Assembly (NCBI GenBank): GCA_019614645.1
Contig: JABWDB010000004.1
Location: forward strand, 14,012,001 to 14,076,000
Direction: 5' to 3'
DNA length: 64,000 bases
DNA from: Stratiolaelaps scimitus
Lineage: Eukaryota > Arthropoda > Arachnida > Mesostigmata > Laelapidae
Shown: positions 22,512 through 64,000 of the stretch, in pieces
How positions within the stretch are numbered: position 1 is the first letter of the stretch
How the letters are laid out: every line of letters starts with the position of its first letter
The notes under the pieces: generated by a model
The model's database searches: none
What the model saw: the letters and a program-made list of their open reading frames with translations, nothing else
What the model was told of the DNA's origin: nothing
Translations under genes and position numbers: made by a program

Positions 22512-23190
22512 CTGGTAGCGACCCCAGTGAGTCTTTGTTGGTGTCGCTAAAGTCGTCCCACGTGGCGTCTTGACTTGTGTTGGCTTTGCTCGAAGAATCG
22601 GTAGGAGGCGTAATGTCACTTAGAGGTGTTGGGGTGGCTGTCTCCTCGGACGACTTTGTGAGCCGTCGTTTCGCTTTGCGAATTTTGCGTCCACCAGATG
22701 CCTCGCTTGTTGGTGACTCAACGAACAGTTCCGGAGCTTCAACGATGTCGCTGGATTCGGTACTGATAAGCATTCGAGCGGCGGCTCGTTCACCCGAAGC
22801 AGTTTCGTCTTTTGGGATTGTCTCAAGATCGTATGACGTACTCTCAGTGTTCACGATCGGTGACAGATTGACTTCCTCGCTCGGCAATCGTACAGCATCA
22901 GCGGAGGCCAAACCCTCGAGAGGTACCTCTGGATCGTCGTCTTTCTCCTTACCTGTGGTCGTTCGCTTCTTCCGGCCTTTCTTCTTTGTTTTCTGACTCG
23001 TGTCCACCTTGTGGGTAGCCTCATCTTGGACTGGGCTCTTTGCCACTTCCACTACTGTAACGGCGGTGGTTTCGGGTTCAGTGGATTCGGTCACTCTGAC
23101 AGGCGAGGTGTCCACCGAGTCATCGGCGGACTTGAGCACTGAAGCTAGCGTCTCACGTGCGGTGTCCTGCGACACCATCGATGCTGCTGT
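22512..23190 (-). other. C-terminal tail of the giant exon product
   Basis: Non-repetitive acidic Ser/Thr-rich sequence punctuated by two basic patches (KKKGRKKRTTTGKEKDD and GRKIRKAKRRLTKSSEE), ending WDDFSDTNKDSLGSLPG at the splice donor. The basic patches look like relics of the K-block found throughout the exon. Confidence 0.8.
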
Positions 23191-26100
23191 GGACTTGACT
23201 GACTCGTGCACTATCTGATCGGCGAGTGCCTCAGCCAGCGACTCCATTTCTGCGGTTGCTATTTGTTGCTGAACGTCGCTGGGACCCTTTCGATCATCGG
23301 CAGGGATTGCTTCCTCCGCAGACGGCGGATGCACTATCTGATCTGCGAGTGCCTCAGCCAGCGACTCCATTTCTGCGGTTGCTATTTGTTGCTGAACGTC
23401 GCTGGGACCCTCTCGACCATCCGCAGGAATTGCTTCCCCCGCAGACGGCGGATGCACTATCTGATCTGCGAGTGCCTCAGCCAGCGACTCCAGTTCTGCC
23501 GTTGGCATTTGTTGCTGAACACCGCTGGTACTTCCTCGATCATCGGGTGGCATCGCCTTTTCCGAAGACGGTGGATGCACTATCTGATATGAAAGTGATT
23601 CAGCCAGCAATTCGAGTTCTACTGGCGGTATGTGCTGCTGAACGCCGCTGGGACTCTCTTGATCATCGGCGAACATCATTTTTTCCGGGGACGGCAGAGG
23701 CACCATCTGATCCAAGAGTGCTTTAGCCTGCGGTTCGATTTCCGATGGTAGTATTTGCTGCTCAACACCTCTGGCACTTTCCGGATCAGCGGCCGGCAAG
23801 GCCTTTGCCGGTGACGGCGGACGAACAGGGATCGGCTGCCGATAATCTTCTTCTTGCTTCTTCTTCTTCTTTCCGCCTTTCTTTTTCTTACCGTCCTTTT
23901 TCTCGCCATCGGACTCTCCCCCGCCTCCGGCGGTTCGTACGGCCGTTTTCTCGGGCGATGATGTGGTATCAGGAATGTCATCCGTATCAAGAACAGAATG
24001 ACCCTCGTACTCCGTCACCTGCGAAATGTCCTCGTTGTCATGTACTATCGTATCGGTATCGGTGAGGGCGTCAAGGACGTTGCTGGTGTCGTCAGGCGGC
24101 TCGGCAGTGGCGGCGGCGGCAGTGGCGACGACAGCCGCGGCGATGGCGGCGGCGACTGCAGCGGCATGGTCTGGTGTTGTTTCTTTCGAGGCCTCAGGTA
24201 CAGTTTCGAGATGCGGGCTCTCCACGGTTTTTGTTCGCCGGGGCTTGTCTACAGCCACGGCGGCAAACGGATCATCCAGCATCAACGTAGGTGGTTCGAC
24301 AGTGGAAATTGTTTCGGGTTCGGCCAGGTCATCGGGCATCATCTCCCACCAGTTTTTACTAGCGGCGGCAGCATTGCTCTGATTCACATTACCTACGTTA
24401 CTACGTTTTAAAGGTGTTTGTGTGCATGGTAGATGATCAGTGTGTTTGGTGGTGGAAGTCACGGGTTCAGCCGTGATTCCCTGTCTCTGTGTGTCACGTA
24501 GTGTGTTTACCTCTTCAGCACTGACGATCTGCTCTTGGGACTGGTCAGTCTCACAGACAGGTGGGACCTCAACAAAAGCGTCTAACATATCCTTTCGTTC
24601 GCCTGATGTTACATCGCTAACGGGGCTCTCTCTTTCACTGCGTCTCTTATCCTTTGATTTTTTAGACTTCTTTTTGTGCTTCTGTTTTTTATCGGTGGCA
24701 GGCAAATTACTATCCGTCGACTGCACACTCTCAGATCCGTCTAGCTGCATGGGCTCCGCAGCTTTGTCCTCGGGTTCGATGCTCAGTTGCTTCAATGACT
24801 CGCCTTGATGTTCAGTGTCAACCGGCTGTGGCAGTGCTTCCAAATCGGTTTGGACCAGGTCAGGCCTGGGTTGCTCTGTCGAGTCTGTTTTGATGGGAAG
24901 TGTTTGCTTCGTATCGTCAAACCAGTCGGGGCTAGTTGACGGCTGAGCGTCTGACGCGGCACCCAACACCTCACTCTCCTCTAATTCTGTTGGAACTGGC
25001 CATTCTTCTCCTGAAACGGGGCCCCAGATATTCTTGGGTGAAATCGAGCCGGTGTCTGTGAAGGAGTTTCTGGGTGTTGGTGGAACAACGTCAATGTGGT
25101 CAGGAGACAGCTCCTGCAGTACCTTGGGCGCCGGTGATTGGAGAGCAGTAAGAATTTCATCCCAACATTGTGGAGGCAATCCGCGTGTTATGTCTATGTT
25201 TTCAGACACTTCTTGCGGACGCTTTGGGTCTGGAGGAAGTTCCAACTGAGAGGTTGCTCCATCATCTTTCGTTTGAGCTGATGTTGTAACTTCCGTCTCA
25301 TGGCGGGCATCAGGGCTTTCCTTGAGGAAGTTCTTCCAGGCGTCGCTCACTTCGGGATCCATTGTAAGAAAGTCTTGTGGGGCCCCAACCATTGATCCCA
25401 CACTGCTGCCCGAGATTTGACGAACTCTGCTATTATCCTGAACTCGTTCTTCGGGGACATTTGGTACGTCGGTTGGCTGTCCGAAGAATTCATCCCAGGC
25501 GTCGGACACGGATGGAGATCCGGCTAAAAGCGGTGCAGGGTAAAGCTGTTGCTCTTGGGCCGAAGGGTCCGTGGGTCTACTGGGTTGTTCCTCCGGCGTT
25601 GGTGCTGGCGTTGGGTATTGGTTCCACTCTGAACCAAGGCTCTTAGTTTGAGGAATAGCAGCTTCCGCTGGTACGTCATCGATGCTCAAATTGGAACTAG
25701 AGGGAATAGCGACTGTCAGAGGAGAAAGACGTTCAGCATGGTCGCCACAGGGTTTGGAAACTTTATACTTTTTAAAGGCCTTTTGAATTGTTCGTGCGGC
25801 TATCTCTTCTTCGGTAGTGTTCAGTGCACTGGCTTTCTCCTGGAAATATCCAGTACCATCACTGCTTCGAACCAGTTCGCTACTACTGCCCCCGGCAACT
25901 GTGGCTGAATCTTCAACGATTGGATGGATCTCCTCTCTGTCTTGTTCTTTCGGTTGTATCGAAGCAGGAATGGTTTTCTCCACTTCGGTCACCTGTGCAC
26001 TTTTCTGTTCTGATACAGGTGATTCCTTTTTGGCTTTTTTCGATTTCTTCTTTCTAGCTTTTGGCTCCGTGCTGCTTTTGATGTAGCCACTGTCCTGTGC

Positions 26101-29100
26101 GAAAGAAGCAGTAGGCTGGTCTTTGTTCTTGCTCGACTCTTCAGAGTCCTCGAAATAGCCTTGCGAAGAAAGAGGAACGGTTTGGTCAGGCAACTGTTCA
26201 CTGTCCGTCTGTGGAGCAGTCCGAGTTCGATGTTTGCGGAACGCTTTCTGAATCTTGCGTGCTGCAGCGTTTTCTTTTTCTAAGCCTTGGATGCTAACTG
26301 TCGGTTGATCGTGTCGCGTGCTGGAAGAAGGGTCTCGGTGCTTTCGAGAGGCAAAGCGACGGTAGGCCTTTTGAATCTTACGTGCTGCTACTTCCTCTTC
26401 TTGCACGCTACCTGTACTCACAGAAGTTGAGGCAACTGGCTTGCGGTCGTCCTTTCGCTTTCTATATCTTTTGTACGCCCTTTGGATCGTTCTGGCAGCG
26501 TACACGTCCTGTTCCTCTTGCGTGGAATCACCCTGTAGAGAAGTAGCGACTTCAACTGGTGGTTCTTTTCGGTTGTGATACTTCCGGTACGCTCTCTGAA
26601 TCCTTTTTGCAGCCTGCTCTTCATCTGATCTCTTTTTCAGTTCAGACTCACGGCCTTTCCTTGTTTTGAAGTTCTTGAAAGCCTTCTGAATTTTACGTGC
26701 GGCTTTATGCATTTCCTGAAGGGCAGAGTCCGAAAAATAGCCCGCGCCATCAATATGTTCCTTCGGTGTCGGAAGAGGTGACTGGCTCTTGCGAGTTCTA
26801 TAATGTCGATAGGCCTTTTGAATGGTTTTCGCAGCCTTTTGGACGTCGTCCAAACCAGGCTCAGGTGTCAGACCTCTTGTGGCCTCCAGAGCAGAGGGAA
26901 GGAAGAAATCATGATCAAACGTGGTGCTGGGCCTGACTGGTTCTTTTGTCTCTGCAGTACTGATAGCGGATATCTCCACTTGAGGGATGGCTGGAGGAAT
27001 AAGATCTCCTTCAAGTTGGAAAGTCTCTGCGCCTCCGTAAGCCGTCGCCGCAAGAAGGATTTCATCTGTTGGCATGGCAACTGCCGGTTTTGGATAGATC
27101 CCATGAGCTCCAGACCCTGAGGCATGTGCTTCATCGTCGTGTGGTATGTTCTCAACATCCGCTAGCGACAGATCCTCCTCGGTATCAAACGTTTCAGTGT
27201 AACCGGTCGTCTGACGAGTCTCATCCTTGGTACTCACTACGGCAGGAGGTGGCCCTGCCTCTACGCTTTCTAAAGGTCTACCTGTTGTTCTTAACGTTTC
27301 CGCTCCCAGGATATTTAGCTCAGTGCCAGTAACATTATATTCCGGTGTTTTGGTCAGCAGATCAGAAGGGCGCGTTCTTTCCACTGGCGATTGTTGGTTC
27401 ATGCCAGTTATTGCACCGGGCAAGTTGTCTGATGAAGGTTGGATAGAGCCAGCAACTGCCTGAGACCTTCTCTTTGCCTTTTTGGACTTCTTCTTGCCGA
27501 GTTTGTCCTTACTAATACCATCTTTAAGATCTGCGGTGGGTTCCTTTACTCCCGAAGCCTCTAGCGGGGCAGCTTGCGTGGGATATAACACCTCATGCAC
27601 TTCAACCTGCTCCATTTGGACTTCACTCGGCGTATACTGGGTTGCCATGCCTTGCTTGCTCTCAAGGCCTTCTACAGCAACTTCAAAGCCGGAACCCACT
27701 GGTAGTTCTGTTTGCTCTACGTTATCGTGAAGTATGCCCTCGGGTGGTTGGGACTCTTCCATCAGCCGAGCAGAACTCAGGTTGGTAATACCCTCCTCGC
27801 TCGGCGTATCAGTTACAGTGGTTGGTGCAAACGTGACACTTTGTCCTATAACGGGTTCGACGCTTATAGTTGTTTCGTTAAGATCCCTATCCCACTTACG
27901 AGCATCTGCGACTTCTTCGTATACCGCAATCTGTTCTTCCGCTTTGATGAAACCCTGCTGAATGTCGTGCTTACTAAAAATATCGTCCGTAGTATCCTGC
28001 ACGGGTGCTAAAGTTCCCTGCGGTAAGCTACCAAGATATTCAGACGGCTTTGTACCGTCCGCAACATTTGTGTCGGTGATGTCCTCTGATGTAGGCCACG
28101 CCTCGCTTGTTCTGGTCTCGCTGTGCAGCTCGGATGTAAAGACTTTCCTACTCTTCTTGGACTTCTTTTTACGTTCTTTAGCTCCATCATCGGTTTTATG
28201 GTCCCCTTTATTGCCTGCAGCGAATTCTACCTGCTTCGGGGTGCCTTGGAAAGCCTCTTCCGGAGGCACAGCTTGTTCTTTTACAAGCTCGCTAGTGTTT
28301 AGGTGAGTAGTACCTTCAATAAACTGGGACAGTTCTTCGGGGGCAGATGGTATTGGCGCTTCTTCGCTGACCCATTCCGCTTGCAAGAAGGTTTCTTTTG
28401 TGGCTATAATATCTTCAGTGTAGTCATCTGCACCCATGGAGGGGTCGGCAACATGCTTAGTTTGTTGGTCGAGCGATTGCTGAGACGCGCTCCAGACCTC
28501 TTCACTGCCTCGCAACAGATCATCATCTGTAGTCGTGGTAACTTCTGAAAAAACTCTGGTAGACTTCGTCTTTCCCTTTTTGTTCTTCTTTCGGTGGGTT
28601 TTATCTGCGCCTTCGCTGGGCTCATGCTCGGTAACGGCATCTTCGGTAACGCAGACTACGCGCAGTGTTGTCGCATCTTCGTTCACATCAATCTCAAGCG
28701 GTTTGGAATGCATGCCTATAAGGTCTGGGTGGGCAGCTTCTCCTAACATGTCACTAACGGTAACTCCTGATGCTTCAGTGGCTTCAAGTAGCTCCCCAGA
28801 AAATCCGGCCAGGTGATCTATAGTATGTGGAATCGTATCAAGTTCATCGGCTGCATACTGAGTTGGTTGCGTAAAGGGCCTGCTCAATATTGGGCTACCC
28901 TCCTTTGCTGGTATACCCACGGCTGCAACGCCACCAAGATCACTGGTAAGTTTCATGGCATCGGTAGTTGTTTGTTCTTCGCCCACATAAAGCGGAGTTC
29001 TGGTTGGCTCATGTCTGTCCACTCCTTCTATATATTCCACCGCATCACTGGTGGCTCTCGCTCCTTCATCAGCAGTTGATGCTATCTTTTTATTCTTCTT

Positions 29101-32100
29101 CGATTTCCTCTTCTTCTTGTCGCTTTTTCCAATGGCTTCGCTGAGGTCGGGCTCGCTTACCAACGGTTGTGCAGCATCAGCTCCGCCTAACAGTTCTTCA
29201 CTGTCCCGAGTTTCTTTCTCAGGATCTTCGATAGTATCTGGTACGGACTCGAGGGTAACCTCACTGGTGGTTGGTTGTGTGTCTTCCATAACTGTACTTT
29301 CGGGCGTGACCTCTTTGTCAGTTGCTGCTAATTTATTTTTGCCTTTTTTACTCGTTGTTTCCCGAGGTTTGCCCGCCTCGTCCATAACAAGCTTCGGGCC
29401 AACCGTATTCTCGCCAGTATATTTGGCTGCGTCAACTGGGTCGGCTATTTGTTCTTCGCGGACGCGTAGGGCTTCATGATCCGTGGATGGTTCTTCCCAG
29501 TATGCAGGCACATCCACGCCGGAGTACTTGGCTGCGTTAGTTGCGCCGACCTTTTCTTCTTCAAGATCCGTGGATCCTTTTTCCCAGGATCCAGGGACAT
29601 ATTCGCGCGTGTCATTTGCGCCAATCCTTGGTTCTTCAAGGTCCGTGAATCGATCTATCCAGGATCCAGGCACCTCCACGCCGCAGTACTTGGCCGCGTC
29701 AGTTTCGCCGATCTTTTGTTCTTTAAGATCTATGGATTGTTCCTCCCAGGAGGCAGAAACATGGCCCTCAGTGTACTTGGCTCCGTCAATTGCGCCAATC
29801 TTTGGCTCTGTAAGATCCGTGGATTGATCTATCCAGGATACAGGCACATCCACGCCAGAGTACTTGGCTGCCTCAGTTGCGCCGATATTTTGTTCTTCAA
29901 GATCCGTGGATTTTTCCTCCCAGGAAACAGGCACATCCTCCCCTGTGTACTTGGCTCCGTCAGTTGCGCCAATCGTTGGTTCTTCATGCTCCGTGGATCG
30001 GTCTACCCAGGATACAGGCACATCCACGCCGGAGTACTTGGCTGCTGCAGTTGCACCGATCTTTTGTTCTTCAACATCCGTGGGTTCTTGCTCCCAGGAT
30101 GCAGGGATATCCTCCCCTCTGTACTTGGTTCCGTCAGTTGCGCCAATCTTTGGTTCTTCAAAATCCGTGGATCGATCTATCCAGGATGTAGGCACATCCA
30201 CGTAACTGTACTTGGTTACGTCCGTTGTGCCGACATTTGTCTCCTTAATATCCGTGGATTGTTCCTCCCAGGATACAGACACATCATCCCCTGTGTACTT
30301 GACAGCGTCAGTTTCGCCGACCATTTGTTCATCGCGTACTGGTTGGAATCGTTCAAGGTCTGTAGATCGTTTCTCCCAGGATGCAGGTACATCCTTCTCT
30401 GCGTCAGTTTTGGCGGCCATTTGTTCTCGTACATTTAGGGATGGTTCGAGATCCGTGGATCGTTCGTCCCAGAATGTAGGCACATCCTCCTCTTTGTACT
30501 TTGCTGCGTCAGTTGTGTCGACCATTTGTTCTTCGCTTCCATTTAGGGATAGTTCAAGATCCGAGGATCGTTCTTCCCAGGATGCAGGTACATCCTCTCC
30601 TGTGTGCTTGACTGTGTCAGTTGTGCCGACCATTTGTTCTTCACGTACACTTCGGGATGGTTCAAGAACCGAGGATCGTTCTTCCCAGGATGCAGGTACA
30701 TCCTCCTCTGTGTGCTTGGCTGTGTCAGTTATGTCGACCATTTGTACTTCGCGTGGTTCAAGATCCGAGGATCGTTCTTCCCAGGATGCAGGTACATCCT
30801 CCCCTGTCTGCTCGGCTGTGAGAGTTGTGCCGACCATTTGTACTTCGCGTGGTTTAAGATCCGAGGATCGTTCTTCCCAGGATGCAGGTAGATCCCCCCC
30901 TGTCTGCTTGGCTGTGAGAGTTGTGCCGACCATTTGTTCTTCACGTACACTTCGGGATGGTTCAAGAACAGAGGATCGTTCTTCCCAGGATGCAGGTACA
31001 TCCTCCTCTGTGTGCTTGGCTGTGTCAGTTGTGTCGACCATTTGTACCTCGCGTACACTTCGGGATGGTTCAAGCTCCGATGATCGTTCCTCCCAGGATG
31101 CAGGAACATTCACCCCGGTGTACATGGCCGCATCAGTTGCGCCGACATTTTGTTCTTCAAGATCAGTCGATCGTTCTTCCCACGATGCGGGCACATCCTC
31201 GTAAGCAGGACCAGCAGAACGTTCTCGTCTTTCATCCATGACAGGTGAAACCTTTTTACTCTTTTTAGATTTCTTTTTACCTTTGACCGATGTATCTACG
31301 ACACCAGTTACAGATAGCCGTCCTTCGCTAGTCTGAGTTTGTTCTTCGAGAGAATCTTCATCGTACTTCGTGTCCTCGTAGACAACGCCTGGATGACTAG
31401 TAACTGATTCTACCTTGCCCGTATCAGTCGTTTCGGGAGAAGCTTCTGCTTTGTCAGTTATCGTTGACTTTTTCTTACCCTTCCGTGCTCTCTTCTTGCT
31501 CTGCTTATCCGGTCCCTCAGTGGTAGCTAGTTCCGCGGCGTGTTCCTTAATACTAGCGGCCACCTCTTGCTGTACGGTCTCGGACACCATTTCTGAATGT
31601 ACTGGCTGTCCGGAAGTAAGGGCGTCTTCAGCTCCAAGCTTTTCACGTTTTTTGGATCTTTTCTTATTTGATTTACCTGTACCCTGATTAGCATCAATGT
31701 CGCTTAGAGACTCTTCGGGGACACTAACTATCAGCAACTGGCTATCATCGGTTGACGTCCGTGCTTCAATAGCAGGTTCCTCTATAGAAGTTGGTGGCAA
31801 TCTTATTTCTTCGTCTACCGTCACTTTACTCTTAGAACCCTGTATGTCGGTGTTCTCCTTTATACCCTCCACTTGGATCACACTACTGGCAGCGCTCGCT
31901 TCCTCAAGCTGATCACGCAGCAAAATAGATTCAAGTGGTTCATGAATTGAGTCAAGTGGCAGGTAAGTGGCGCCTTGCTTGGCATGGTGTTCACCCTTAT
32001 CCTTAGCTGTAGTACACAGCTCTTCAGCGCCTGTATCTTCGGCAACTTTCAGTGTGCTCTCACCGATGGCGTACCCTGTAATGGTCTCTTGGGGTAAACT

Positions 32101-35100
32101 GACCGTGTGCACTCCCTCCAGCAGGGCCTTTGGAAGTGTCTCACGGGCTTCACTACCTGTAAGGTGAGAAACATCATCAGCGAAATCGGGCAAATCGAAA
32201 ACAACGGCCGCTTCGAGGATTGTCTCTCTCTGCGTGCTTACAGGTATCTTACAGCTGCCGATATCTGGTTCGTTCTCTCCATCTCTGCCATGACGTGCGG
32301 GTTCCTCGGCTGCTGTTTGTGCCTGCTCCTTGGACACTGGAGAAACATCCTCAGCACGTTCGTGCTGTTCTGCAGGAGATCCTAGGGTTGAGAGTTTTGC
32401 ATCCTCAGCTGTAAGCGACTCACCGATTGTTATTGAGCGAGTACTTCCGGATTCATGAGTTTCCCAGTTGTCTTTTTCTGGATCATCCGATAGCTTGGCT
32501 GCCGGAGATGGGCTGACTATGGTTTCGGTAACAGCCGCCGGTCGTATCGACTCTTCGGAAACCGGAAGGAATACATCAGTATTGTCAGGTGGTTCAAGGT
32601 ATTCCAGGTTTTCGTCTCTAAATTCTAACATAGTTTTACCAGAATACAATCCTTCTGCTGCTGCTTGTAGTGTTTCGGAAGGCTCATATTGTTCCATTGG
32701 GAGAATCGCTGCATGGTCGGGAATGTTTTCAATCATCAAGACCTTCGAGCTATCTTTTTCCTCTGATTGTGTTTGCTTCACCTCAGCAATCTCGACATTG
32801 GATATCAATGCAACTACATTATCTACGTTTGCAATAACTTCTTCTTCGCGCTCCTTATTAAGGGCCTGGCTGATATCAACATCAGTGATAGATTGCTCCA
32901 TTATGGGCAATGCGAAAGCATCGCTTAGAGGCTGGACATCCCGATCGGAGACGACGTACTGAACCTCATCTCGTTGAGCAGAACCGGGTTCATTCACATG
33001 TACATGTTGTTCGTCAGCAGGATGAAGGAGTATGGGTTCGCTCGATGGACCTAATTCTTCGATCGGGCGTGGCTCTTCCCCACCCAGCTGAGATGGGGGC
33101 GCCTTCGCGCCTCTCGTTTTTTCCTTCTTCTGTTTCTTGACGTCCTCGGTTCCTGAAGCCTGAATCTCAGAAGGCTGTGTCTGCTCTGCCGAAACCGAGG
33201 GAACCCCTGTCTCGAGTATTTCATTTGGGATCTCAACTGTGGTTGGTGGTAAGGCGTCAGTATTTTTGACGAACTCAAATTGTGCGATTTCCAAACCTTC
33301 CGCCTCAGTTGTTGTCGGATGTATCTTCAGTGTTTGTCCAAGAAGCGACGTCTCCGTTGTTTCGGTAGTCGCCGGTGCTTTGGCGGCCTCAACGGTGAAC
33401 CCTGTGTCACCAGTCAAGCTGTCAACGGTGACTTTTTTCTTGTTCTTTTTGGACCTCTTCTTACCAGATTTTCCAGCGCTCTTATCAATATCAGTGTCCT
33501 TGGCAGATTCATCGAAGGTTTCGTGTGTGCCTGTTTGCGGACTTTGATCCAGTGTTTCGGAATCTGCAATGGGCTGCTCCAACTGAGACTTTGTCGAATC
33601 AGGAGCATCGTTTACAACTGCGGGTGGTTCCATACCTGTGCTTAAGGTTGAACTTGGCCACAAGACTTGACAACCATCTGTAATCGTTTCAGCTCTTGCG
33701 TCGGGTAGGTTGGCAACTTCGCCCACGTTGTCCACTGGTGCAACCCCTTCTCCTGCTTGCTCGGTTAACCAAGGGGCATATTGATCATATTCTTCCCGGC
33801 TAGGTGTTACACATGGGGCTTCGCCAGCGAATTGAATCTCAGCACTAGGAACGGGCTGTCGTTGTGTTTGGGCCTCAAGCTGGTTCTCCTCAGAAGGCTG
33901 ACCAAGTACTTCGTTATCAAACTCCCTCGTAATCGGTTGCTCACTTGTCGCATCACCTAGTGGCGCTCCTACCAATCCACCACTGCTGGAATCTTCAGTG
34001 CCTATATTGTGGTCACCGGTCATCGACGGTTGTAGAGACGACCATGAGGGATCTTGCTGAATTTGCTCAGGTACAGCGCTATGCGACTCGATTTCAGCCG
34101 TTTCTGCCATGCTGTGGCTGTCACATGGGACCATGGTATCCAAACCCGTGGTAGATTCGGCCAGTAATCCAGCAATAACCTCTTGCTGATCTCGAGTGTG
34201 TTGTCGGGACCGTTTTTGTTTGCGTTTCTTTTTCAAGTCATCCGGAACAAGAGTGCTTTCGAAGGCAGACGTCGTGTCTTCCTCTGACAAAGGTATATCA
34301 ATGTCACGTTGTTGCTTCTTCTTCTTTTTGCTCTTCTTTTGTGTACCAGCATCCTGCTGCAATACTCCGTCATGCTCGGTGTCCTTCTCAGAAGACTTTC
34401 GAGAACGTTCCGTGGGTGGCGAAGTTGAAAACTCATCGATAGAATCTCTGTGCATGACGACAGCGACACCACTAGAAAGAAGAGCTTGCGCTGGAGTACC
34501 GAAGTACTCCCGTGTCCCTGGGGATGTTTCCGTCTGCTTTGATACAGCCGTGCTGGGGGCAAACGTGGCACTACGTGGTGGATGTTGTGGCTCTGTGTGT
34601 GTGTAGGCGTGTGTATATGTTGTTTGTTGTGTGCTATATTCTGCCGGTGAGTGCAGACTATAGTCCGCTTGTAGTGTATCATGCGGGCGGTCCTGTTGGA
34701 TAGGACCCTGTTGATCACTTACGACCATCATTGGTTCATTACCTACTACATGAACATAAGTCTGAGGTGTATACCCTGGCTCTCGTACTGGGGTAACACC
34801 TCTGGATGGTCTAGGGCTGGCGGAGGCTCGACCCGCGCACACGTCAGCGTACGAGGGCAACTCTAACGTATCATACTGTTGAGGCTCATTGACCGTCACC
34901 TGTTCTACGAAATGTGTCGTTGTTGGCAAATTTTCTTCCAGATAGCTACCAGGTAACACACCTGCGGATATTTGACGGGATATATTCCCGATCACTGGAG
35001 ACGGCACGTCGTGAAGTGGAGAATATGCCGGTTGAATGTCACACGGCTCATAGGGATTTTCTGGAAAATACTGTGTGAGTTCATCGGCCGGATAGTAGCC

Positions 35101-53100: not shown

Positions 53101-56100
53101 GTCGACCTTGGTAACCTCGGCCGAAATGACAGACTCAACATCAAGTGGTAGAACTTCAGGATGCTCAGGTTGTTCCCTTCCAGGTTGAGGTGTCATTAGG
53201 TCAAAGACGTCTTCGGGCCCTGCGAAGAGTACCTCGGGGTGTTCGGGTTGCTCTCTTGCAGGCTGAGGTGTCATCAAGTCGAATACGTCTTCGACCACTT
53301 GGGGCTCCTCAGCAGGGAGTTGTACATCATCTGCTTGATCAATGGGTGCAAGTGGCTTCTTTTTATCTTTCTTTGATTTCTTCTTTTTAGCTTTGTCAGT
53401 GCCCTCACTAGTTTCCTGATCACTAGCGACGCTTACGACTACAGCCTCAACAACCTGGAGCCCATCTACGACCTCGGATTGTTCCTTAGCCTCAACGATT
53501 GCATAGTCGATCTTGGTAACCTCGGCCGAAACGACGGACTCAACATCAAGTGGTAGAACTTCAGGATGCTCAGGTTGTTCCCTTCCAGGTTGAGGTGTCA
53601 TTAGGTCAAAGACGTCTTCGACCACTTGGGGCTCCTCGGCAGGGGGTTGTACATCACCTGCTTGATCAATGGGTGCAAGAGGCTCCTTTTTATCTTTCTT
53701 TGATCTCTTCTTTTTTGCTTTGCCAGTGCCCTCACTAGTTTCCTGATCACTAGCGACGCTTACGACTACAGCCTCAACAACCTGGAGTCCATCTACGACC
53801 TCGGATTGCTCCTTAGCCTCAACGATTGCATAGTCGACCTTGGTAACCTCGGCCGAAATGACAGACTCAACATCAAGTGGTAGAACTTCAGGATGCTCAG
53901 GTTGTTCCCTTCCAGGTTGAGGTGTCATTAGGTCAAAGACGTCTTCGGGTCCTGCGAAGAGTACCTCGGAGTGTTCGGGTTGCTCTCTTGCAGGCTGAGG
54001 TGTCATCAAGTCGAATACGTCTTCGACCACTTGGGGCTCCTCGGCAGGGGGTTGTACATCACCTGCTTGATCAATGGGTGTAAGTGGCTTCTTTTTATCT
54101 TTCTTTGATTTCTTCTTTTTAGCTTTGTCAGTGCCCTCGTTAGTTTCCTGGTCACTAGCGACGCTTGCGACTACAGCCTCAACAACCTGGAGCCCATCTA
54201 CAACCTCTGATTGTTCCTTAGCCTCAACAATTGCGTAGTCGACCTTGGTAACCTCGGCCGAAATGACAGACTCAACATCAAGTGGTAGAACTTCAGGATG
54301 CTCAGGTTGTTCCCTTCCAGGTTGAGGTGTCATTAGGTCAAAGACGTCTTCGGGCCCTGCGAAGAGTACCTCGGAGTGTTCGGGTTGCTCTCTTGCAGGC
54401 TGAGGTGTCATCAAGTCGAATACGTCTTCGACCACTTGGGGCTCCTCGGCAGGGGGTTGTACATCACCTGCTTGATCAATGGGTGTAAGTGGCTTCTTTT
54501 TATCTTTCTTTGATTTCTTCTTTTTAGCTTTGTCAGTGCCCTCACTAGTTTCCTGATCACTAGCGACGCTTACGACTACAGCCTCAACAACCTGGACCCC
54601 ATCTACGACCTCGGATTGTTCCTTAGCCTCAACGATTGCATAGTCGATCTTGGTAACCTCGGCCGAAACGGCGGACTCAGCATCAAGTGGTAGAACTTCA
54701 GGATGCTCAGGTTGTTCCCTTCCAGGTTGAGGTGTCATTAGGTCAAAGACGTCTTCGACCACTTGGGGCTCCTCGGCAGGGGGTTGTACATCACCTGCTT
54801 GATCAACGGGTGCAAGAGGCTCCTTTTTATCTTTCTTTGATCTCTTCTTTTTAGCTTTGCCAGTGCCCTCACTAGTTTCCTGATCACTAGCGACGCTTAC
54901 GACTACAGCCTCAACAACCTGGAGTCCATCTACGACCTCGGATTGTTCCTTAGCCTCAACGATTGCATAGTCGACCTTGGTAACCTCGGCCGAAATGACA
55001 GACTCAACATCAAGTGGTAGAACTTCAGGATGCTCAGGTTGTTCCCTTCCAGGTTGAGGTGTCATTAGGTCAAAGACGTCTTCGGGTCCTGCGAAGAGTA
55101 CCTCGGAGTGTTCGGGTTGCTCTCTTGCAGGCTGAGGTGTCATCAAGTCGAATACGTCTTCGGCCACTTGGGGCTCCTCGGCAGGGGGTTGTACATCACC
55201 TGCTTGATCAATGGGTGTAAGTGGCTTCTTTTTATCTTTCTTTGATTTCTTCTTTTTAGCTTTGTCAGTGCCCTCGTTAGTTTCCTGGTCACTAGCGACG
55301 CTTGCGACTACAGCCTCAACAACCTGGAGTCCATCTACAACCTCTGATTGTTCCTTAGCCTCAACAATCGCGTAGTCGACCTTGGTAACCTCGGCCGAAA
55401 TGACAGACTCAACATCAAGTGGTAGAACTTCAGGATGCTCAGGTTGTTCCCTTCCAGGTTGAGGTGTCATTAGGTCAAAGACGTCTTCGGGCCCTGCGAA
55501 GAGTACCTCGGAGTGTTCGGGTTGCTCTCTTGCAGGCTGAGGTGTCATCAAGTCGAATACGTCTTCGACCACTTGGGGCTCCTCGGCAGGGGGTTGTACA
55601 TCACCTGCTTGATCAATGGGTGTAAGTGGCTTCTTTTTATCTTTCTTTGATTTCTTCTTTTTAGCTTTATCAGTGCCCTCACTAGTTTCCTGATCACTAG
55701 CGACGCTTACGACTACAGCCTCAACAACTTGGAGCCCATCTACGACCTCGGATTGTTCCTTAGCCTCAACGATTGCGTAGTCGACCTTGGTAACCTCAGC
55801 CGAAACAATGGACTCAACATCAAGTGGTAGAACTTGAGGATGCTCAGGTTGTTCCCTTCCAGGTTGAGGTGTCATTAGGTCAAAGACGTCTTCGGGTCCT
55901 GCGAAGAGAACCTCGGAGTGTTCGGGTTGCTCTCTTGCAGGCTGAGGTGTCATCATGTCGAATACGTCTTCGATCACTTGGGGCTCCTCAGCAGGGGGTT
56001 GTACATCACCTGCTTGATCAATGGGTGCAAGTGGCTTCTTTTTATCTTTCTTTGATTTCTTCTTTTTAGTTTTGTCAGTGCCCTCGTTAGTTTCCTGGTC

Positions 56101-59100
56101 ACTAGCGACGCTTGCGACTACAGCCTCAACAACCTGGAGCCCATCTACAACCTCGGATTGTTCCTTAGCCTCAACAATTGCGTAGTCGACCTTGGTAACC
56201 TCGGCCGAAACGACGGACTCAACATCAAGTGGTAGAACTTCAGGATGCTCAGGTTGTTCCCTTCCAGGTTGAGGTGTCATTAGGTCAAAGACGTCTTCGA
56301 TCACTTGGGGCTCCTCGGCAGGGGGTTGTACATCACCTGCTTGATCAATGGGTGCAAGTGGCTTCTTTTTATCTTTCTTTGATTTCTTCTTTTTAGCTTT
56401 GTCAGTACCCGCGTTAGTTTCCTGATCACTAGCGACGCTCGCGACTACAGCCTCTGCCACCTGGAGTTCATCTACAACCTCGGATTGTTCCTTAGCCTCA
56501 ACGATAGCGTAGTCGACCTTCGTAACCTCGGCCGAAACGACGGACTCAACATCAAGTGGTAGACCCTGAGGATGCTCAGGTTGTTCCCTTCCAGGTTGAG
56601 GTGTCATTAGGTCAAAGACGTCTTCGGGTTCTGCAAAGAGTACCTCGGGGTGTTCGGGTTGCTCTCTTGCAGGCTGAGGTGTCATCAAGTCGAATACGTC
56701 TTCGTCCACTTGGGGCTCCTCGGCAGGGGGTTGTACATCACCTGCTTGATCAATGGGTGTAAGTGGCTTCTTTTTATCTTTCTTTGATTTCTTCTTTTTA
56801 GCCTTGTCAGTGCCCTCACTAGTTTCCTGGTCACAAGCGACGCTTGCGACTACAGCCTCAACAACCGGAAGCCCATCTACAACCTCTGGTAGTTCCTTAG
56901 CCTCAACGATTGCGTAGTCGGCCTTAGTAATATCGACCGAAGCGACAGACTCAATATCAAGTGGTAGAACTTGAGGATGCTCAGGTTGTTCCCTTCCAGG
57001 TTGAGGTATCATTAGGTCAAAGACGTCTTCGACCACCTGGGGCTCCCCGGCAGGGGGTTGTACATCACCTGCTTGATCAGTGGATGCAACTGGCTTCTTT
57101 TTATCTTTCCTTGATTTCTCCTTTTTAGCTTTGTCAGTGCCCTCGCTAGTGTCCATGTCACTGGCGACAGTTGCGACTACAGCCTCTGCCATCTGGAGCC
57201 CATCTGCACCCTCGGATTGTTCCTTGGCCTCAACGATTGCGTAGTCGACCTTGGTAACATCGGCCGAAATGGTAGAATCAACCTCTAATGGTAGAACTTG
57301 AGGATGCTCAGGTTGTTTCCTTCCAGATTGAGGTGTAATTATGTCAAAGACATTTTGGGGTTCTGCAAAGAGCACCCCAGGTTGTTCACTTGGCTGCGGA
57401 TTCATCATGTCAGAAACGTCTTCAATCACTTGGAGATCCTCGACAGGAAGCCTTGCTTCGTCGCCTCGATCATCATCTGGATCGGTTGTCTTTTTAACTT
57501 TCTTGGATTTCCTCTTTTTACCCCGGTCTCTGTTCTCGCTAGTGTCCATGACACTGGCGACGTGGACAATAGCATGCTGGCAGGTATATTGAGTGTCTTC
57601 AGGAGGTGCAGGCTGTAGTGCTAGAACACCAATGCTATCCTCAGTTACCACGTGCTCATATGCCGTTGATGACTCATCTAATGGCTCCTCATGCTGTATA
57701 GTTTCTTCCTTCTCTATCTTGGGTTTCTTTTTTCCCGCATTGTTTATAGACTCGCTTATATCATGGTCACTAGAGGTATCCATAGGAACTACTGTGTCAT
57801 CTTGAACGTCAGTGGGTTTACGAATGATATCCGAACCCATATCTCGTTCTTCCCAAGACAGAGGTGTCATTGACCGTCTCTCCAGAAGAGCCGGCTGATC
57901 TTTAGAGATCCCATGCTCGGGTTGTGCCCTTCCAGGCTGAGGTGTCATCAGTTCGAAGATGTCTTCGACGACTTGAACCTCACCTGCCACGAAGAATTCT
58001 CCCCTTTGAGGGGTAGCTGATTTCATAGTTTCCCCGGTTACATCAATGTCAGTTACTAAAGCTGCAGTCTCTTCCGAAGTAAATGTATCTGTGTTTGTGG
58101 GAATACTTGACTCCTCGGCAGTGATTATAAGAGCAGTATCCTTCTGCTCACCAAAGGACTTAATGGAAACGTTCACAGTGTCGACTTCCTCCGTAGCAGG
58201 TAAATTACTAGGCTGAACTGAATCGGTAACAACTGAAGCTTTAGAGGCATCATCGACTGATTCGTGGTCGGTCCCTACTCTGATAGCCTCTTGTGAAACG
58301 GGTTCATCAGTTTGTGCCGTGAGAACTCCAGGATGTTCGGGCTGTTCTCTTACAGGTTGATGAGTCATCGAGTCGTAGAAATCAACAACGTTTTGACACT
58401 TATGGGCAGCTAACGGCTCTGTCTTCGCCTTCTCAGCGGTTGCTAACGATTTCTTGTGTTCCCTTTGAGACTTCTTATCTTTAGCCTTCTGGGCAACCTC
58501 GTTCATTTCTTGGTCACTTACAGTGGTTGTTTGAATCGCGGTATAGCTCTGTTTCTCGGATATTTTAACAGCGCCGTCGGAATACTCATCCTGTTCCCTC
58601 GATACCGATGATTTTATCAAGTCAGAGACATCAGTCATCAGTGGAAATTCGTCACTTGTAGGCCAACCCTGATCTTTGGCGGGAGAATGGGTGGTAGTCT
58701 GATTCTCAGTATCAACCGATGGAAGAGGTTCGCCCCTTATTGGATGAATTTGAGGTGGTTGGGGCTGCTCTCGTGGATGTTGAGATGTCATAAGGTTGAA
58801 GGCATCGATTTCAGTTTCCTGAACAGCAGCAGCGTCTCTTGTGCAGATCGTGTCCACATCGTACCACTCCGTATCAATATTAGTGACCATTTCAACAGCA
58901 CCCGCCAAAATTGATTCTTGGGAGCCTGTAGAAATTCCTTTACATTTGTGGTCTTGCTGATCAGTAGGCTGAGTTGCCATCGAACCAAGGACACCTTCAG
59001 TCACTTCGACCCTAGTTGAGGACAACGGTAAAGTATCAGTCCGGTCGGCGGCTGAAATCGCCTTACTTTTGTCTTTCTTGGACTTAATATTTTTTTTATT

Positions 59101-62100
59101 GTCGATACTCTTACCCATGGAATAGTCGCTAGGAGCAGCTATAGGGGATGCAGCGCGTAAACCTTCGCCTTCTTCCTTCAAAGATGGAGACTCTATCAGA
59201 CCGGAGATATCACTCTTCACTTGACTTTCGTCTACGTATTCGCGTGAGTCACCCTTATCACTGACCTCGACGGTATCACCCCCTCTGGAAATACCCTTGA
59301 TGCAGTCTGCTGGAATTAACACTTTCTCATTCACGTCAAGACTCGGATGATGATCAGGCTGTTCTCTTATAGGCAGAGGTGTCATTAAATCGAAAACGTC
59401 ATCGGAAACTTGAGTTTGTTGCGGCACGGGAACTGCTGATTCTTTAGATACCTTTAATTTCTCTTTGTCACCTTGTAGATCAGAATCCGCGCATGGGATC
59501 GCCGGACTATCATCGGTTTCCTTCACCGGTGGAGGTGTAGTCATATAAGGTGCATCAATAACTTTGGTAACGTCGGCCGAAATGGTAGGCTCAACCTCTA
59601 ATGGTAGAAATCGAAGATGGCCAGGTTGTTCCCTTCCAGATAGAGGTGTCATTAGGTCAAAGACGTCTTCGGGTTGTACGAAGGGTACCTCTGAGTGTTC
59701 GGGTTGCTCTCTTGCAGGCTGTGGTGTCATCAAGTCGAATACGTCTTCGATCATTTGGGGCTCTTCGCCAGGGGGTTGTACATCATCTGCTCGATCAATG
59801 GATGCAACTGACTCTCTTGCAGGCTGTGGCTTCATCAGATCAGAACCATCTTCAATTTTGAGTTCTTCTACTGGTAGGGGCACACTTGAAACAGTGATTT
59901 CTGGTTCCCTCTCGAACGTGTCTCTATCGACAGTTGCTTCTATGGCTGCCGTGTGGATGAATCCCTCAGATGCTGCAGAGACTACCTCGGGGTGTCCGGG
60001 TTGTTCGGTTGTAGGCTGTGGCGTCTTCAGACCAGAAACGTTTTTAATCACTTGCGATTCTTCGGCAGGAAGTTCTACCTTCGCTGCTTGATCAACAGGT
60101 GGAACTGGCTTCTTTTTATCTTTCCTCGACTTTTTCTTTTTAGCCTTTTCGGTGCTTCCGATAATATCCTCGTCACTGGCGACACTTGCGACGACCGCAT
60201 CCGACACCTGAGCCCCAGCTACAACGTCAGATTGTTCTTTTGCTTCAACGATTGCATAGTCGGTTACAGACGTAGTGACATCGACCGAAATGTATGAGCC
60301 ATCCTCTAGTGGTAAAATTTGAGAATTCTCGGACTGTTCTCTTGAAGGCTGTGGCATCATTAGATCAGAAGCGTCTTCAATGGGCTGTGTTTCTTCTGCT
60401 GGTCGGGGCACACCAGCTGGTTCTGTGGTTGCCGTGGAGGTGAATTCTTCGGGTGCTGCAGAGAGTACCTCGGGATGTTCGGGTTGTTTTCTTGCAGGCT
60501 GTGGTGTCATTAGATCAAAAACGTCTTCAATCTCTTGGGGTTCTTCAGCAGGAAGCTCTGCCTTCACTGCTTGATCAACAGGTAGAACTGGCTTCTTTCT
60601 GTCTTTCTTCGACCTTTTCTTTCTTGCTTTGTCGGTGCTTTCGCTAATATCCTGGTCATTGGCAACACTTGCGCCGACTGCATCCGACACCCGGGCCCCA
60701 TCTACTGCGTCGGGTTGTTCTTTTGCTTCAACAATTGCATAGTCGGTTACAGACGTGGTGACATCGGCCGAAATGTTGGAGCCATCCTCTAGTGGTAATA
60801 TCTGAGAATACTCGGATGATTCCCTTGAAGGTTCCGGCGTCATTAGATCAAAAACGTCTTCAATCACTTGAGGTACTTCTACTGGTAGTGCCACGCCAGA
60901 GGAAGTGATTTCTGGTTCCTTCTCAAAAGTGTCTCTATCGACAGTTGCTTCTGTGGCTGTCGTAGAGATGAATTCTTCAGATGCTGCAGATAGTACATCG
61001 GGTTGTTCCCCAGCAGGCTGTGGTGTCATCAAATCGAAAACGTCGGGTTCTTCAGCAGAGGGCTGTACATCATCTGCTTGATCAACGGGTGCGACTGGTT
61101 TCTTTTTATCTTTCTTCGACTTTTTCTTCTTAGCTTTGTCGGTGCTTTCGGCATTATCCTGCTCGATGGCGACACTTTTCACGACAGCATCTGCCACCTG
61201 GGCCTCACACACAGCCTCGGGTTGTTCTTTCACCTCAAAGTGTTCGGGTTGTTCCCTTGAAGGCTGTAGCGTCATCAGATCAGAAAGATCTTCAGTCACT
61301 TGGAGTTCTTCTACTGGAAGGGGCACACTTGAAACAGTGATTTCTGGTTCCTTCTCGAACGTGTCTCTGTCGACAGTTGCTTCTATGGCTGCCGTGTGGA
61401 TGAATCCCTCAGATGCTGCAGAGACTACCTCGGGGAGTCCGGGTTGTTCGGTTGTAGGCTGTGGCGTCTTCAGACCAGAAGCGTTTTTAATCACTTGCGA
61501 TTCTTCGGCAGGAAGTTCTACCTTCTCTCCTTCATCAACAGGTAGAACTGGCTTCTTTTTATCTTTCTTCGATCTTTTCTTTTTAGCCTTTTCGGTGCTT
61601 CCGATAATATCCTCGTCACTGGCGACACTTGCGACGGTCGCATCCGCCACCTGAGCCCCAGCAACAACATCGAATTCTTCTTTTACTTCAACGATTGCAT
61701 GATCGGTTACGGACTTGGTGACATCGACCGAAATGTTGGAGCCATCCTCTAGCGGTAAAATCAGATCAGAAACGTCTTCGATGGGCTGTGTTTCTTCTGC
61801 TGGTCGGGGCACACTTTCTATTGAGTCGCTGTCGTGAGTTTCCCCTGTGACTACCGCAGAGGCGAACTCTTCGGATGCTGGAGAAACCAGTTGTACACTT
61901 GCAAGCTGTGGCGTCATCAGATCAAAAACGTCTTTAGTCACTTGGGGTTCTTCACCGAGAAGCTCTGCCTTCGTTTGTTGATCGACAGGTAGAACTGGCT
62001 GCTTTTTATCTTTTCTAGATTTCTTCTTGTTAGCCTTAGCTACGCTCGCGTTGGTATAGTGACCACTAAGTACATCCTGCTCAATATTTTTAATATCGGG

Positions 62101-64000
62101 GACAACCTCGGCTGTCTTGGCTAAAGCCACGTGTTCACTCGCTGGGGCAAGCACATCTGAATTTTCTGGTTTTTGTCTTACAGGCTGAGGTGTCATCATG
62201 TCAAATACATCCTCAGAAACCTGAGCTCCTTCAACAGGGTAGAATCCAGTCTCCAAAGTAATCTCTTGTTCCTTATCCGTTACAGTTTTCCCAATATCAG
62301 TGACTGCATCAAAAGCCACAGAAGAACCAATGTGTTTCACTGCTGCGGCGAGCATGACTGGCTGTTCTTTTACAGGCTGAGATAACATTGGATCAAATAC
62401 ATCACCTACAGCCTGGCCTTCATCCACGGGAAAGCACACTGTCTCGGAAATGATTTCTAATTTAATATCCTCTACGAGTTGTTCTGGATAGGTGACTGTC
62501 CCAAGAGCCACAGCGGAGTTAATTTCTTCTTCTGTTGCACATCGCACGTATGGTTGCTCGAGTTGTTCCTTCACAACAGCACCAGGTTGAGGTGCTATCT
62601 CTTCAATGGTACCTTCGCTCACATGTGTTTCTGTTGCAACAGTTGGAACAATTCCTACAGGATCGACTCTTGAAACCGGCTTCTTCTCGTCTCTCTTAGA
62701 TTTTTTCTGTGTATCTTTGTCTGTGCTTTCATTAGTGTCAAGGTCGCTGGCAACCACCTTATCCTCCTTCTTGGATCTATTCTCCGCAATTCTGACTGTA
62801 CTTTCATTCGTATTATGGTCGCATGGAACGTGTATTTGAGGAACAACATCGATTTGTTTATCAGAGGCTGTAGCAATGGTGGGCAAACCACCAATTTCCT
62901 CCAACTCAGATGGGGGAGCCACCATGTTCGACACGTTGTCTGTCAATGGAGGCTCAACTTCATCCACAAACTCATTTTTGTGCTCGGCCGTCTTTATGTC
63001 GGTGACCGTTGTGACAACACCCGTCGAGGCAGATATTAATTGATTGGAGATATCATCCACTAACTGCACCCCATCCACAACCAATCGCCGATCTCTATAT
63101 TCAGTGGTTTCTGTTTCGACGACGGCTCCGTCGGCACCCATCGGAATTGGTTCCGCGGCAACCGCGGGAAAGTCTTGGGTGCCCTCGGGTTGTTCCTTTG
63201 CAGGCTGAGATGTAGGGTAGAATTCTAACGTTTCAGTGACCTCTAATATTTTAGCCTTCTCGGCTTTGTCGATGTCAGTGATAAATTCCGCAGGGCCTGC
63301 CGGAGTAAATTCCTTGTCTCTATTTTCTCTCTTATCAGGTTCGCTTATACCACACTCACTGACACCCGCATTGTCCTGGGTACTTTCGAGAACACCGTGA
63401 TGCGTCAGTTGTTCTTCTTTGGGCTGAGATGCCGCCAAACCCACTTGATCTTCGAGTATAGGTTGTTCGCTCGTCACTTGCGGTATCAAAGGAGGTTCTT
63501 CTGTTTGTAGGTCTCCTTTTCTCTTCTTTATCTTTGATTTCCTTTTGACTGGTCTTCTTGAGCTTTCATTCGTGTCATGGTCGCTACAAATATCCGCAAG
63601 AAGCGATGCACGATCATCAGGGGGCTTGGGAGAGGTGGCTGGAGTCTCACCTCGAACCTCCACAGATGAAAGGCTTGCCATACCTACAGCACTGATTACT
63701 TGGTCTTTGTCCTGTTCTACGGTTTCGTAGATCCCAGTTACGTTAGAAGCTTCTGATGAAAGAACCACTGGATGTTCAAGCTGGTCCGTTGTTGGCCGGG
63801 CTGACATCCAATCAAAGACATCATCGGTTACCTGAGGCTCGTCAGCCTCTTTCTTTTTGTCCCTTTTATGTTTTGTCTGTTTAGCTTTGTCAGTACTCTC
63901 GGCTATAAGGCGATCACTCCAGACTCCTTTAATGAGCGCCACCTGATCCGATGCTTGAATGCCCTCATGACACACAGATTCATCTTCTAAAGCGGCAGCT
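22512..64000 (-). CDS. Msp300: Giant nesprin/Msp-300-like exon, at least 41.5 kb, open at the window edge
   Basis: One reading frame is open from the right edge (frame A|GCT GCC GCT at 64000-63994) to the donor CCAG|GTTAGT at 22511, giving 13,829 codons without a stop or any needed intron. The first in-frame ATG is not meaningful because the frame continues past the edge. Composition is Glu/Lys/Pro/Val/Asp/Ser/Thr-rich with almost no Trp or Cys, so it should be largely disordered. Order in protein direction: irregular K-block/DVFDxMTP units (64000-57140); 53-unit tandem core (57140-37450); unique linkers with KKKSKK blocks (37450-31200); a 19-copy VPxSWEERS repeat (31200-29420); linker (29420-26840); seven IQ motifs (26840-25755); acidic Trp-containing linear motifs and poly-Ala (25520-24100); a 123-bp repeat (23830-23190); then a final basic patch and WDDFSDTNKD. 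It joins in frame to the exon at 21907. No actin-binding CH domains are visible; they would lie outside the window. Confidence 0.93.
23190..23830 (-). repeat. 123-bp (41-aa) coding tandem repeat, about five copies
   Basis: Units carry ESLAEALADQIVHPPSAEEA followed by a VQQQ-containing stretch. Exact 123-bp spacing is seen between the ATGCACTATCTGATC copies at 23331 and 23454 (plus-strand reading). The two units nearest 23.2-23.5 kb are nearly identical; those towards 23.8 kb are increasingly diverged. The helix-like core (LAEALADQIV) may be an amphipathic binding motif; its function is unknown. Confidence 0.85.
23836..23905 (-). other. Lysine-rich block
   Basis: Encodes GEKKDGKKKKGGKKKKKQEE, an extreme version of the K-block of the tandem units. 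It is likely polybasic and may contact acidic partners or lipids. Confidence 0.8.
24100..24176 (-). repeat. Poly-alanine tract
   Basis: Encodes HAAAVAAAIAAAVVATAAAA from GCN codons of mixed type. It is a low-complexity Ala-rich helix-prone tract in otherwise polar sequence. Confidence 0.9.
25316..25522 (-). other. Duplicated acidic Trp motif (SDAWxxF)
   Basis: SVSDAWDEFFGQP (about 25478-25522) and EVSDAWKNFLKESP (about 25316-25358) are two copies of a short linear motif. Related Trp-acid motifs occur further on (CWDEIL, DWFDDT, WWEMMPDDL and WDDFSD at the exon end). Trp-acid motifs of this kind often bind adaptor domains; the partner is unknown. Confidence 0.6.
25754..26841 (-). other. Cluster of seven IQ (calmodulin/EF-hand-binding) motifs
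   Basis: In protein order: AAKTIQKAYRHYRTRK (about 26790-26840), AARKIQKAFKNFKTRK (26656-26704), AAKRIQRAYRKYHNRK (26566-26613), AARTIQRAYKRYRKRK (26454-26502), AARKIQKAYRRFASRK (26342-26390), AARKIQKAFRKHRTRT (26218-26266) and AARTIQKAFKKYKVSK (25755-25803). All fit the IQxxx[RK]xxxx[RK] pattern or near it, with an AAxxIQ[KR]A[YF] core. Spacing is irregular (about 85-460 bp) with diverged linkers, unlike the back-to-back IQs of myosin necks. IQ motifs bind calmodulin or related EF-hand light chains, often without Ca2+. Confidence 0.88.
29420..31200 (-). repeat. 19-copy VPxSWEERSTDLEE coding repeat
   Basis: I count 19 units, each opening with a V(P)xSW or close variant. The later nine or so are about 29 aa (87 bp) and alternate between SWEE(Q/K)STDLEEQ and SWIDRSTDLEEP forms, giving a 174-bp dimer period (for example 29833 to 30007 on the plus-strand reading). 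The earlier ones are longer, 31-37 aa, with an inserted SRSVREEQMV segment. The conserved Trp and the GATDAAKYSG tail recur. The family is not one I recognise. Confidence 0.88.
34795..35390 (-). other. Duplicated YADVxxGRASxS motif in a Pro/Tyr-rich linker
   Basis: TYADVVSGRASRSATP (about 35335-35385) and SYADVCAGRASASPRPSRG (about 34800-34860) are two copies about 540 bp apart, in a stretch unusually rich in Tyr, Gln and Pro compared with the K/E repeats around it. Just upstream is a basic EFQLVTGRSKRTKSVNRRAQ patch (about 35540-35615). It may be an older, non-repeat-derived functional segment. Confidence 0.6.
37450..57140 (-). repeat. Core tandem array: about 53 coding units of 405 bp or 327 bp
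   Basis: Each unit runs K-block (KKKSKKDKKKPLAPIDQA), linker (PAEEPQVVEDVFDLMTPQP), GREQPEHPEVLPLDVES, VDYAIVEAKEQSEVVDG and LQVVEAVVVSVASDQETSEG. Long units (135 aa, 405 bp) carry an extra 26-residue AREQPEHSEVLFAGPEDVFD-type segment, so DVFDLMTPQP occurs twice; short units (109 aa, 327 bp) lack it. I count about 30 long and 23 short units. 30x405 plus 23x327 is 19,671 bp, matching the span. Central units (about 45.5-55.9 kb) are nearly identical in DNA; both flanks are more diverged. All units keep frame because both lengths are multiples of three. Confidence 0.92.
45500..55900 (-). repeat. 1,137-bp higher-order repeat (two long plus one short unit)
   Basis: Equivalent points in the array (plus-strand starts 47865, 49002, 50139, 51603, 52740, 53877, 55014) are 1,137 bp apart, except one interval of 1,464 bp that has an extra 327-bp unit. 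In protein order the triplet is KKEPLAPIDQA-short, DDVQLPAEEP-long, PLTPIDQAGD-long. Private variants track the triplet: gacaacagcc occurs at 50431, 51895 and 53032, spaced 1,464 and 1,137 bp. Confidence 0.85.
57140..64000 (-). repeat. Irregular, diverged copies of the same K-block/DVFDxM unit
   Basis: The recurring elements (KKKSKKDKKKP, VFDLMTPQP or FDWMSARP, EHPEVL-like, VDYAIVEAKE or TDYAIVEAKE) are present from the window edge onward, but with variable spacing, indels and unrelated inserts. They look like older units of the family that formed the core array. The first recognisable one is DDVFDWMSARPTTDQ at about 63.83-63.78 kb, so the family probably continues beyond the window. Confidence 0.8.

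Follow-up and report, generated by a model that had tools for sequence, protein, structure and literature searches.

A stop-free coding frame of 41.5 kb in a nesprin-type gene of the arachnid Stratiolaelaps scimitus

The genome of the arachnid Stratiolaelaps scimitus (Mesostigmata; Laelapidae) contains a minus-strand reading frame that stays open for 41.5 kb and joins in phase to exons encoding a C-terminal KASH domain. It lies in a stretch of 64,000 nucleotides (positions 14,012,001 to 14,076,000 of contig JABWDB010000004.1, GenBank assembly GCA_019614645.1), which we call the window and to which all coordinates refer. Our reading, to which we assign a probability of about 0.78, is that this frame is a giant exon of a nesprin/Msp300-type gene, transcribed and spliced as one exon, and that its product would serve as a compliant, multivalent tether of the nucleus.

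The open frame and the KASH gene downstream

No stop codon interrupts the frame from position 63,999 to 22,510 (13,830 codons); over the same positions, the five alternative frames carry 370, 413, 603, 607 and 1,447 stops, with a longest open run of about 333 codons. Base composition alone, at about 5% stops per codon, gives so long an open frame a chance of log10 P about -305. The first-pass annotation of this DNA had described an exon open to the window edge, free of stops over 13,829 codons and ending at a consensus donor at 22,512, to which ten further exons with a KASH domain at their end would be joined in phase; the whole of this structure was recovered when we re-derived the exon and rebuilt the gene. 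All ten downstream exons are delimited by GT-AG sites, the phase is consistent at every junction and the frame stops after a terminal PPPV. Counting the giant exon as exon 1, the gene model reads as follows.

22,512-63,999, minus: giant exon, coding throughout, with 13,829 full codons and one further nt (41,488 bp) and with its 5' border beyond the window
22,504-22,511, minus: splice donor GTTAGTAA in the context CAG/GTTAGT, which sets the end of the giant exon at 22,512
21,066-21,907, minus: exon 2, 842 bp
20,105-20,807, minus: exon 3, 703 bp
19,698-19,878, minus: exon 4, 181 bp
19,012-19,566, minus: exon 5, 555 bp
14,315-14,596, minus: exon 6, 282 bp
12,477-13,788, minus: exon 7, 1,312 bp, modelled with low confidence as all helical
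11,683-12,205, minus: exon 8, 523 bp
10,559-11,128, minus: exon 9, 570 bp
9,036-9,268, minus: exon 10, 233 bp
8,447-8,704, minus: exon 11, with KASH domain, terminal PPPV and stop

The introns measure, from 5' to 3' in the gene, 604, 258, 226, 131, 4415, 526, 271, 554, 1290 and 331 bp. The coding frame within the window amounts to at least 46.9 kb, and the partial protein encoded by the giant exon and the ten exons following it comprises 15,648 residues (about 1.71 MDa). The presence of a KASH domain at its C-terminus is certain: Pfam family PF10541 matches at 1.8e-21 over positions 1-58 of 58, accompanied by a transmembrane span and the terminal PPPV, while matches in the PDB are to nesprin-1, nesprin-2 and nesprin-3 (nesprin-1 6r15 at 3.2e-8). 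On its sequence, the gene is of nesprin/Msp300 type. SUN proteins anchor nesprins by their KASH end at the outer nuclear membrane, and long nesprin isoforms have an N-terminal pair of calponin-homology domains, which here would fall upstream of the window.

The coding signal along the giant exon was evaluated in overlapping windows of 198 nt with a score that compares position-specific composition with that of the introns of this gene. Of 418 giant-exon windows, 416 score positive, and in 416 of 418 the annotated frame ranks first among the six; since it was trained on non-array sequence of this very exon, the score gauges uniformity and carries no independent weight. In the introns, 8 of 85 windows reach a positive value when the best-scoring of three frames is taken, and 4.7% of the combinations of intron window and frame are open. 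The independent evidence for coding is the lack of stops, together with in-phase splicing and the comparison of the array units presented below. The three windows in which the score is weak or out-ranked all lie within 35,290-35,784, the sole stretch of the giant exon with deviating composition, which is nevertheless stop-free and encodes a normal-looking protein. It contains basic EFQLVTGRSKRTK and YADVVSGR segments, which may be part of a conserved domain; Pfam recognises no family in 33,001-36,000. At the other end of the exon, a lysine cluster followed by DDVFDWM is already present within 65 residues of the window edge, so coding reaches almost to that edge at least. Over 24,001-64,000 the plus strand shows an AT skew of -0.17 to -0.28, the minus (sense) strand being richer in A than in T, as fits lysine and glutamate codons.

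Repeats, composition and selection within the giant exon

The giant exon falls into three parts, centred on a tandem array, and the features mapped in it are listed below.

57,130-63,999, minus: 5' part, 6.9 kb, with diverged units like those of the array, spaced by 131-170 residues where adjacent
37,474-57,129, minus: tandem array, about 19.7 kb, of 109- and 135-residue units
22,512-37,473, minus: 3' part, 15.0 kb, mostly unique sequence with scattered lysine clusters
29,478-31,158, minus: minor tandem repeats of a second family (VPASWEERSTDLE-type and VPASWEERS-type), with periods of 87-108 bp and multiples
25,740-26,835, minus: seven IQ (calmodulin-binding-like) motifs by pattern count; Pfam PF24609 (7.1e-18, 5 stretches) and PF00612 (8.6e-11, 1 stretch)
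23,207-23,793, minus: 123-bp tandem repeat inside the giant exon

Lysine clusters, counted with one pattern, number 7, 52 and 16 in the 5' part, the array and the 3' part (about 75 in total), and the corresponding counts for DVFDL-type motifs, again with one pattern, are 10, 83 and 1 (about 94). The 53 intervals between lysine clusters of the array comprise 21 of 109 residues, 30 of 135 and single ones of 104 and 107; the two main periods, 327 and 405 bp, are both multiples of three. In consensus, the 135-residue unit equals the 109-residue unit plus a 26-residue repeat of its DVFDLMTPQP block. For comparisons among units we used 50 of the 53 intervals, namely the full set of 21 short ones together with 29 long ones, omitting the last of the 30 long units and the intervals of 104 and 107 residues. 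Mean identity is 95.6% in both classes (ranges 0.878-1.000 and 0.919-1.000), and some units are identical. Exact repeat pairs of at least 200 bp number 75, the longest spanning 1,526 bp, and among the 25 pairs listed 1,137 bp, corresponding to two long units and one short, is a frequent distance. In evolutionary terms, the exon would have grown by repeated in-frame tandem duplication: doubling of the DVFDLMTPQP block within the 109-residue unit would have produced the 135-residue unit, after which groups of units would have spread, often at the 1,137-bp period.

Since exact repeats extend up to 1,526 bp, the copy number of the array depends on the assembly, and one may ask if it has been assembled wrongly, the true exon being shorter or longer than 41.5 kb. 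The many exact repeats and identical units speak for such an error, but a mean identity of 95.6% combined with 187 distinct minor variants implies that reads of several kilobases should place most units; moreover, the giant exon without its array still stays open, with no change of phase, for about 21.8 kb. We consider such a miscount improbable.

Selection on the protein was evaluated from the ratio of nonsynonymous to synonymous substitution rates (dN/dS) among units. For the 135-residue units the ratio is 0.39 in frame (406 pairs) versus 0.90 and 0.70 in the shifted frames; for the 109-residue units it is 0.57 in frame (210 pairs) versus 0.63 and 0.64. None of the 187 distinct minor variants of both unit classes introduces a stop, against 6.0 expected (P about 0.0025). 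Purifying selection at the protein level among the units thus appears modestly supported, and weakly so for the short units. These results bear also on the idea that the frame is not coding at all, being either a satellite-like array open by chance or a pseudogene. Its strongly repetitive nature, ratios only moderately below 1 and the proximity of the short units to their shifted frames are what such an idea can draw upon. It has to contend, on the other hand, with the minute chance of so long an open frame, the absence of stops among the minor variants, ten junctions all in phase to a KASH gene and a coding signal that continues across the largely non-repetitive 15 kb of the 3' part, and we find it hardly credible.

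As an exon of coding nature, the giant frame would specify an acidic chain of about 1.5 MDa that is predicted to be disordered. Proline, glutamate, valine and lysine together make up a fraction of 0.47 of the array, against 0.36 and 0.32 in the two parts beside it; in the C-terminal exons the fraction is 0.22. A possible likeness of the array to the PEVK spring of titin, a disordered chain dominated by these four residues, would be one of composition. Charge-hydropathy analysis places the giant exon and its array on the disordered side and the C-terminal exons on the ordered side. The AlphaFold2 (AF2) model of one array unit has a predicted local distance difference test score (pLDDT) of 55 and a predicted template modelling score (pTM) of 0.10, and DSSP assigned nothing in it; the alignment used consisted of the query and 22 other sequences, 5 of them diverged units; long units, with the query among them, contributed 18 of their 30. 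The cluster of IQ motifs suggests a possible control of the chain by calcium and calmodulin, while the lysine clusters suggest that it may bind acidic partners, for example microtubules or membranes.

Splicing of the giant exon

The first-pass annotation had presented the splicing of such an exon as an unusual problem, which may turn out to be smaller than it seemed. Intron definition is usually quoted for introns of a couple of hundred bases. It is described as restricting the size of introns, as exon definition restricts that of exons (PMC2614967). By leaving exon size free, intron definition may offer the simplest route for a giant exon, but the problem retains some of its weight: the downstream intron of 604 bp exceeds the usual length. 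The giant exon, either an internal coding exon or the 5'-most one of a shorter isoform, would then be transcribed and spliced as a single exon, the intron following it being most simply recognised across its own length.

Alternatively, the frame could be real while in-phase, stop-free introns (exitrons) are removed from it, either constitutively or in some isoforms. Scored with matrices of generic metazoan splice-site frequencies, the stretch 63,999-22,400 contains 110 donor-like and 59 acceptor-like sites with a score of at least 6, a count that takes in the true donor. Within the giant exon, GT-AG pairs that keep the phase are numerous and score like the real sites of the gene (among the best 30 listed). 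Strong acceptors in the 3' part are as common as in synonymous shuffles (14 vs. 12.3 +/- 3.6), and the atypical composition at 35,290-35,784 would also agree with exitrons. Conversely, the coding signal fills the exon and is infrequent in the introns, even if the score has been trained on that same exon, and a constitutive intron longer than about 200 bp would need an exon-like codon composition. Exitrons appear unlikely to us on balance; isoforms with part of the giant exon spliced out are possible.

In the same shuffles, scored with the same generic matrices, strong acceptors number 1 versus 19.5 +/- 4.3 in the array and 4 versus 7.0 +/- 1.9 in the 5' part (20 vs. 30.8 +/- 5.3 at a weaker cut-off). 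Selection against cryptic splice acceptors was considered but is not claimed: the deficit of the array disappears when the unit is counted only once (the consensus 135-residue unit, redrawn synonymously 2,000 times, has a mean of 1.66 acceptors against the 1 present, with 50% of redraws at or below this value), and the 3' part has none. The 5' part keeps a mild, unexplained deficit.

Related proteins, giant exons and the proposed tether

With the last 620 residues as query, 7,985 candidates were scored and eight proteins reached E<=1e-3, all eight of which carry KASH; hits are confined to proteins between 0.55 and 1.75 times as long as the query, and full-length nesprins are thus out of range. 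Two Rhipicephalus ticks rank at the top, and the others include Schistocerca, Uranotaenia and three mammals. The best homologue is the Rhipicephalus protein P0001 (MTO96_015696; E 1.1e-23, 25% identity over 45% of the query), which shares the KASH domain and a weak similarity in the region preceding it (320 columns outside KASH with 24.7% identity, E 8e-10); unlike the protein described here, its 2,843-residue model, examined by pattern, has neither lysine clusters nor motifs of the DVFDL or IQ type. In the KASH segment, identity reaches 76% with the other tick protein, P0002, and 64% with that of the locust, P0004. Judged from this one gene and a limited set of homologues, the sequence points to an arthropod and probably to an acarine.

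Several points weigh against our reading of one giant nesprin exon. Besides the many in-phase splice-site pairs and the barely lowered dN/dS of the short units, the lysine clusters, DVFDL and IQ motifs are found by pattern in none of the eight KASH homologues, although their models of 1,251-2,995 residues may lack the region. Pieces of the giant exon retrieved no homologue at E<=1e-3 in two protein searches (7,994 and 558 candidates scored). Moreover, the spectrin repeats that build the rod of nesprins were not recognised: up to E 0.1, Pfam detects none of the spectrin families in the 1,819 C-terminal residues, nor any spectrin repeat in the two tick homologues, and up to E 1 no PDB spectrin chain is matched by a profile of exon 7 with the tick sequences; the all-helical AF2 model of exon 7 has a pLDDT of 46.9. 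Finally, the correspondence of the giant exon with exon28 of Drosophila Msp300 would be one of positional analogy only.

How then could such a protein work? We propose that a very long, disordered and acidic chain, rich in proline, glutamate, valine and lysine in the array, would be followed by a rod and by the KASH domain in the outer nuclear membrane, forming a tether that would hold nuclei, and perhaps the endoplasmic reticulum (ER), to the cytoskeleton, with calmodulin regulation as a possible addition. The tethering function is suggested by analogy with the repeats of ANC-1 and the exon28 isoforms of Msp300. ANC-1 of Caenorhabditis elegans is likewise a nesprin orthologue with the bulk of its sequence in nearly identical tandem repeats, which are reported to contribute to nuclear and ER positioning, their removal producing intermediate defects of nuclear anchorage (PMC8139857); its six repeats have 903 residues each and are predicted to be helical, whereas here more than 50 units of 109 or 135 residues are predicted to be disordered. 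Msp300, the Drosophila orthologue of nesprin-1, is similarly a KASH gene whose transcripts are very long (a reported 21-43 kb, isoform F alone excepted), and RNA interference against its exon28, present in isoforms E, M and G only, is described as leading to clustered nuclei (PMC8616381); its locus differs in having 41 exons. The giant exon also suggests that a nesprin can bear a huge disordered repeat chain ahead of its KASH end, in which case the length of the tether could be tuned via copy number.

The exon had also been called far longer than the best-known giant exons, with those of titin and mucins as the yardstick. Its extreme length stands, but the comparison passes over nearer cases and was overstated in view of the Balbiani ring genes and CpPKS1. 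Longer frames occur in the PKZILLA gene and some bacterial genes, and the products of Balbiani ring genes are secreted and have a role in salivary silk. The four Balbiani ring genes of Chironomus tentans are described as having about 40 kb, four introns and a repetitive central part of about 35 kb (PMC4192438); they resemble the giant exon, as far as its sequence tells, in a long uninterrupted coding core of tandem repeats, but are not KASH genes. CpPKS1 of Cryptosporidium parvum is reported as a single intronless frame of 40 kb (PMC2995488), in this case the entire frame of a putative polyketide synthase of a protist. The spidroin AgSp1 of Argiope is another repetitive arthropod coding sequence, reported to have 42,270 bp, but one intron splits it into two similarly sized exons of about 21 kb each (PMC6553539). 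The length of the giant exon is at or somewhat above that of the Balbiani ring genes and CpPKS1. The novelty seems to lie in the context, a nesprin gene with an exon that is giant, for the most part repetitive, and disordered. Among the records listed in searches of the literature on long exons and giant genes, no title or opening of an abstract mentions an animal exon longer than 41 kb, which is weak evidence. If our reading is true, exon length in animals extends above 41 kb, and with a coding frame of at least 46.9 kb the gene would put the recognition of splice sites and the processivity of transcription and translation to a natural test. In a bolder version, which we regard as doubtful, no animal would be known to have a longer single coding exon, and the product would be a disordered, calmodulin-responsive spring of more than 13,800 residues, varying in length by copy number between individuals or species so that tether length becomes evolvable.

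Other features of the window are minor. Scans for transfer RNAs (ARAGORN) and Rfam families gave no matches in it. Positions 3-602 of the plus strand contain a 200-codon open frame running from the window edge, which resembles the C-terminal end of a separate gene and has in Pfam only a sub-threshold match to Coilin_N (0.053). Two open stretches without Pfam match lie on the minus strand in the 4.4-kb intron (19,011-14,597): one at 15,040-15,204, exon-like, with a GT at its end and outside the gene model, and the other at 17,279-17,839, a frame of 187 codons that could possibly belong to a short KASH isoform, as part of its promoter or its first exon.

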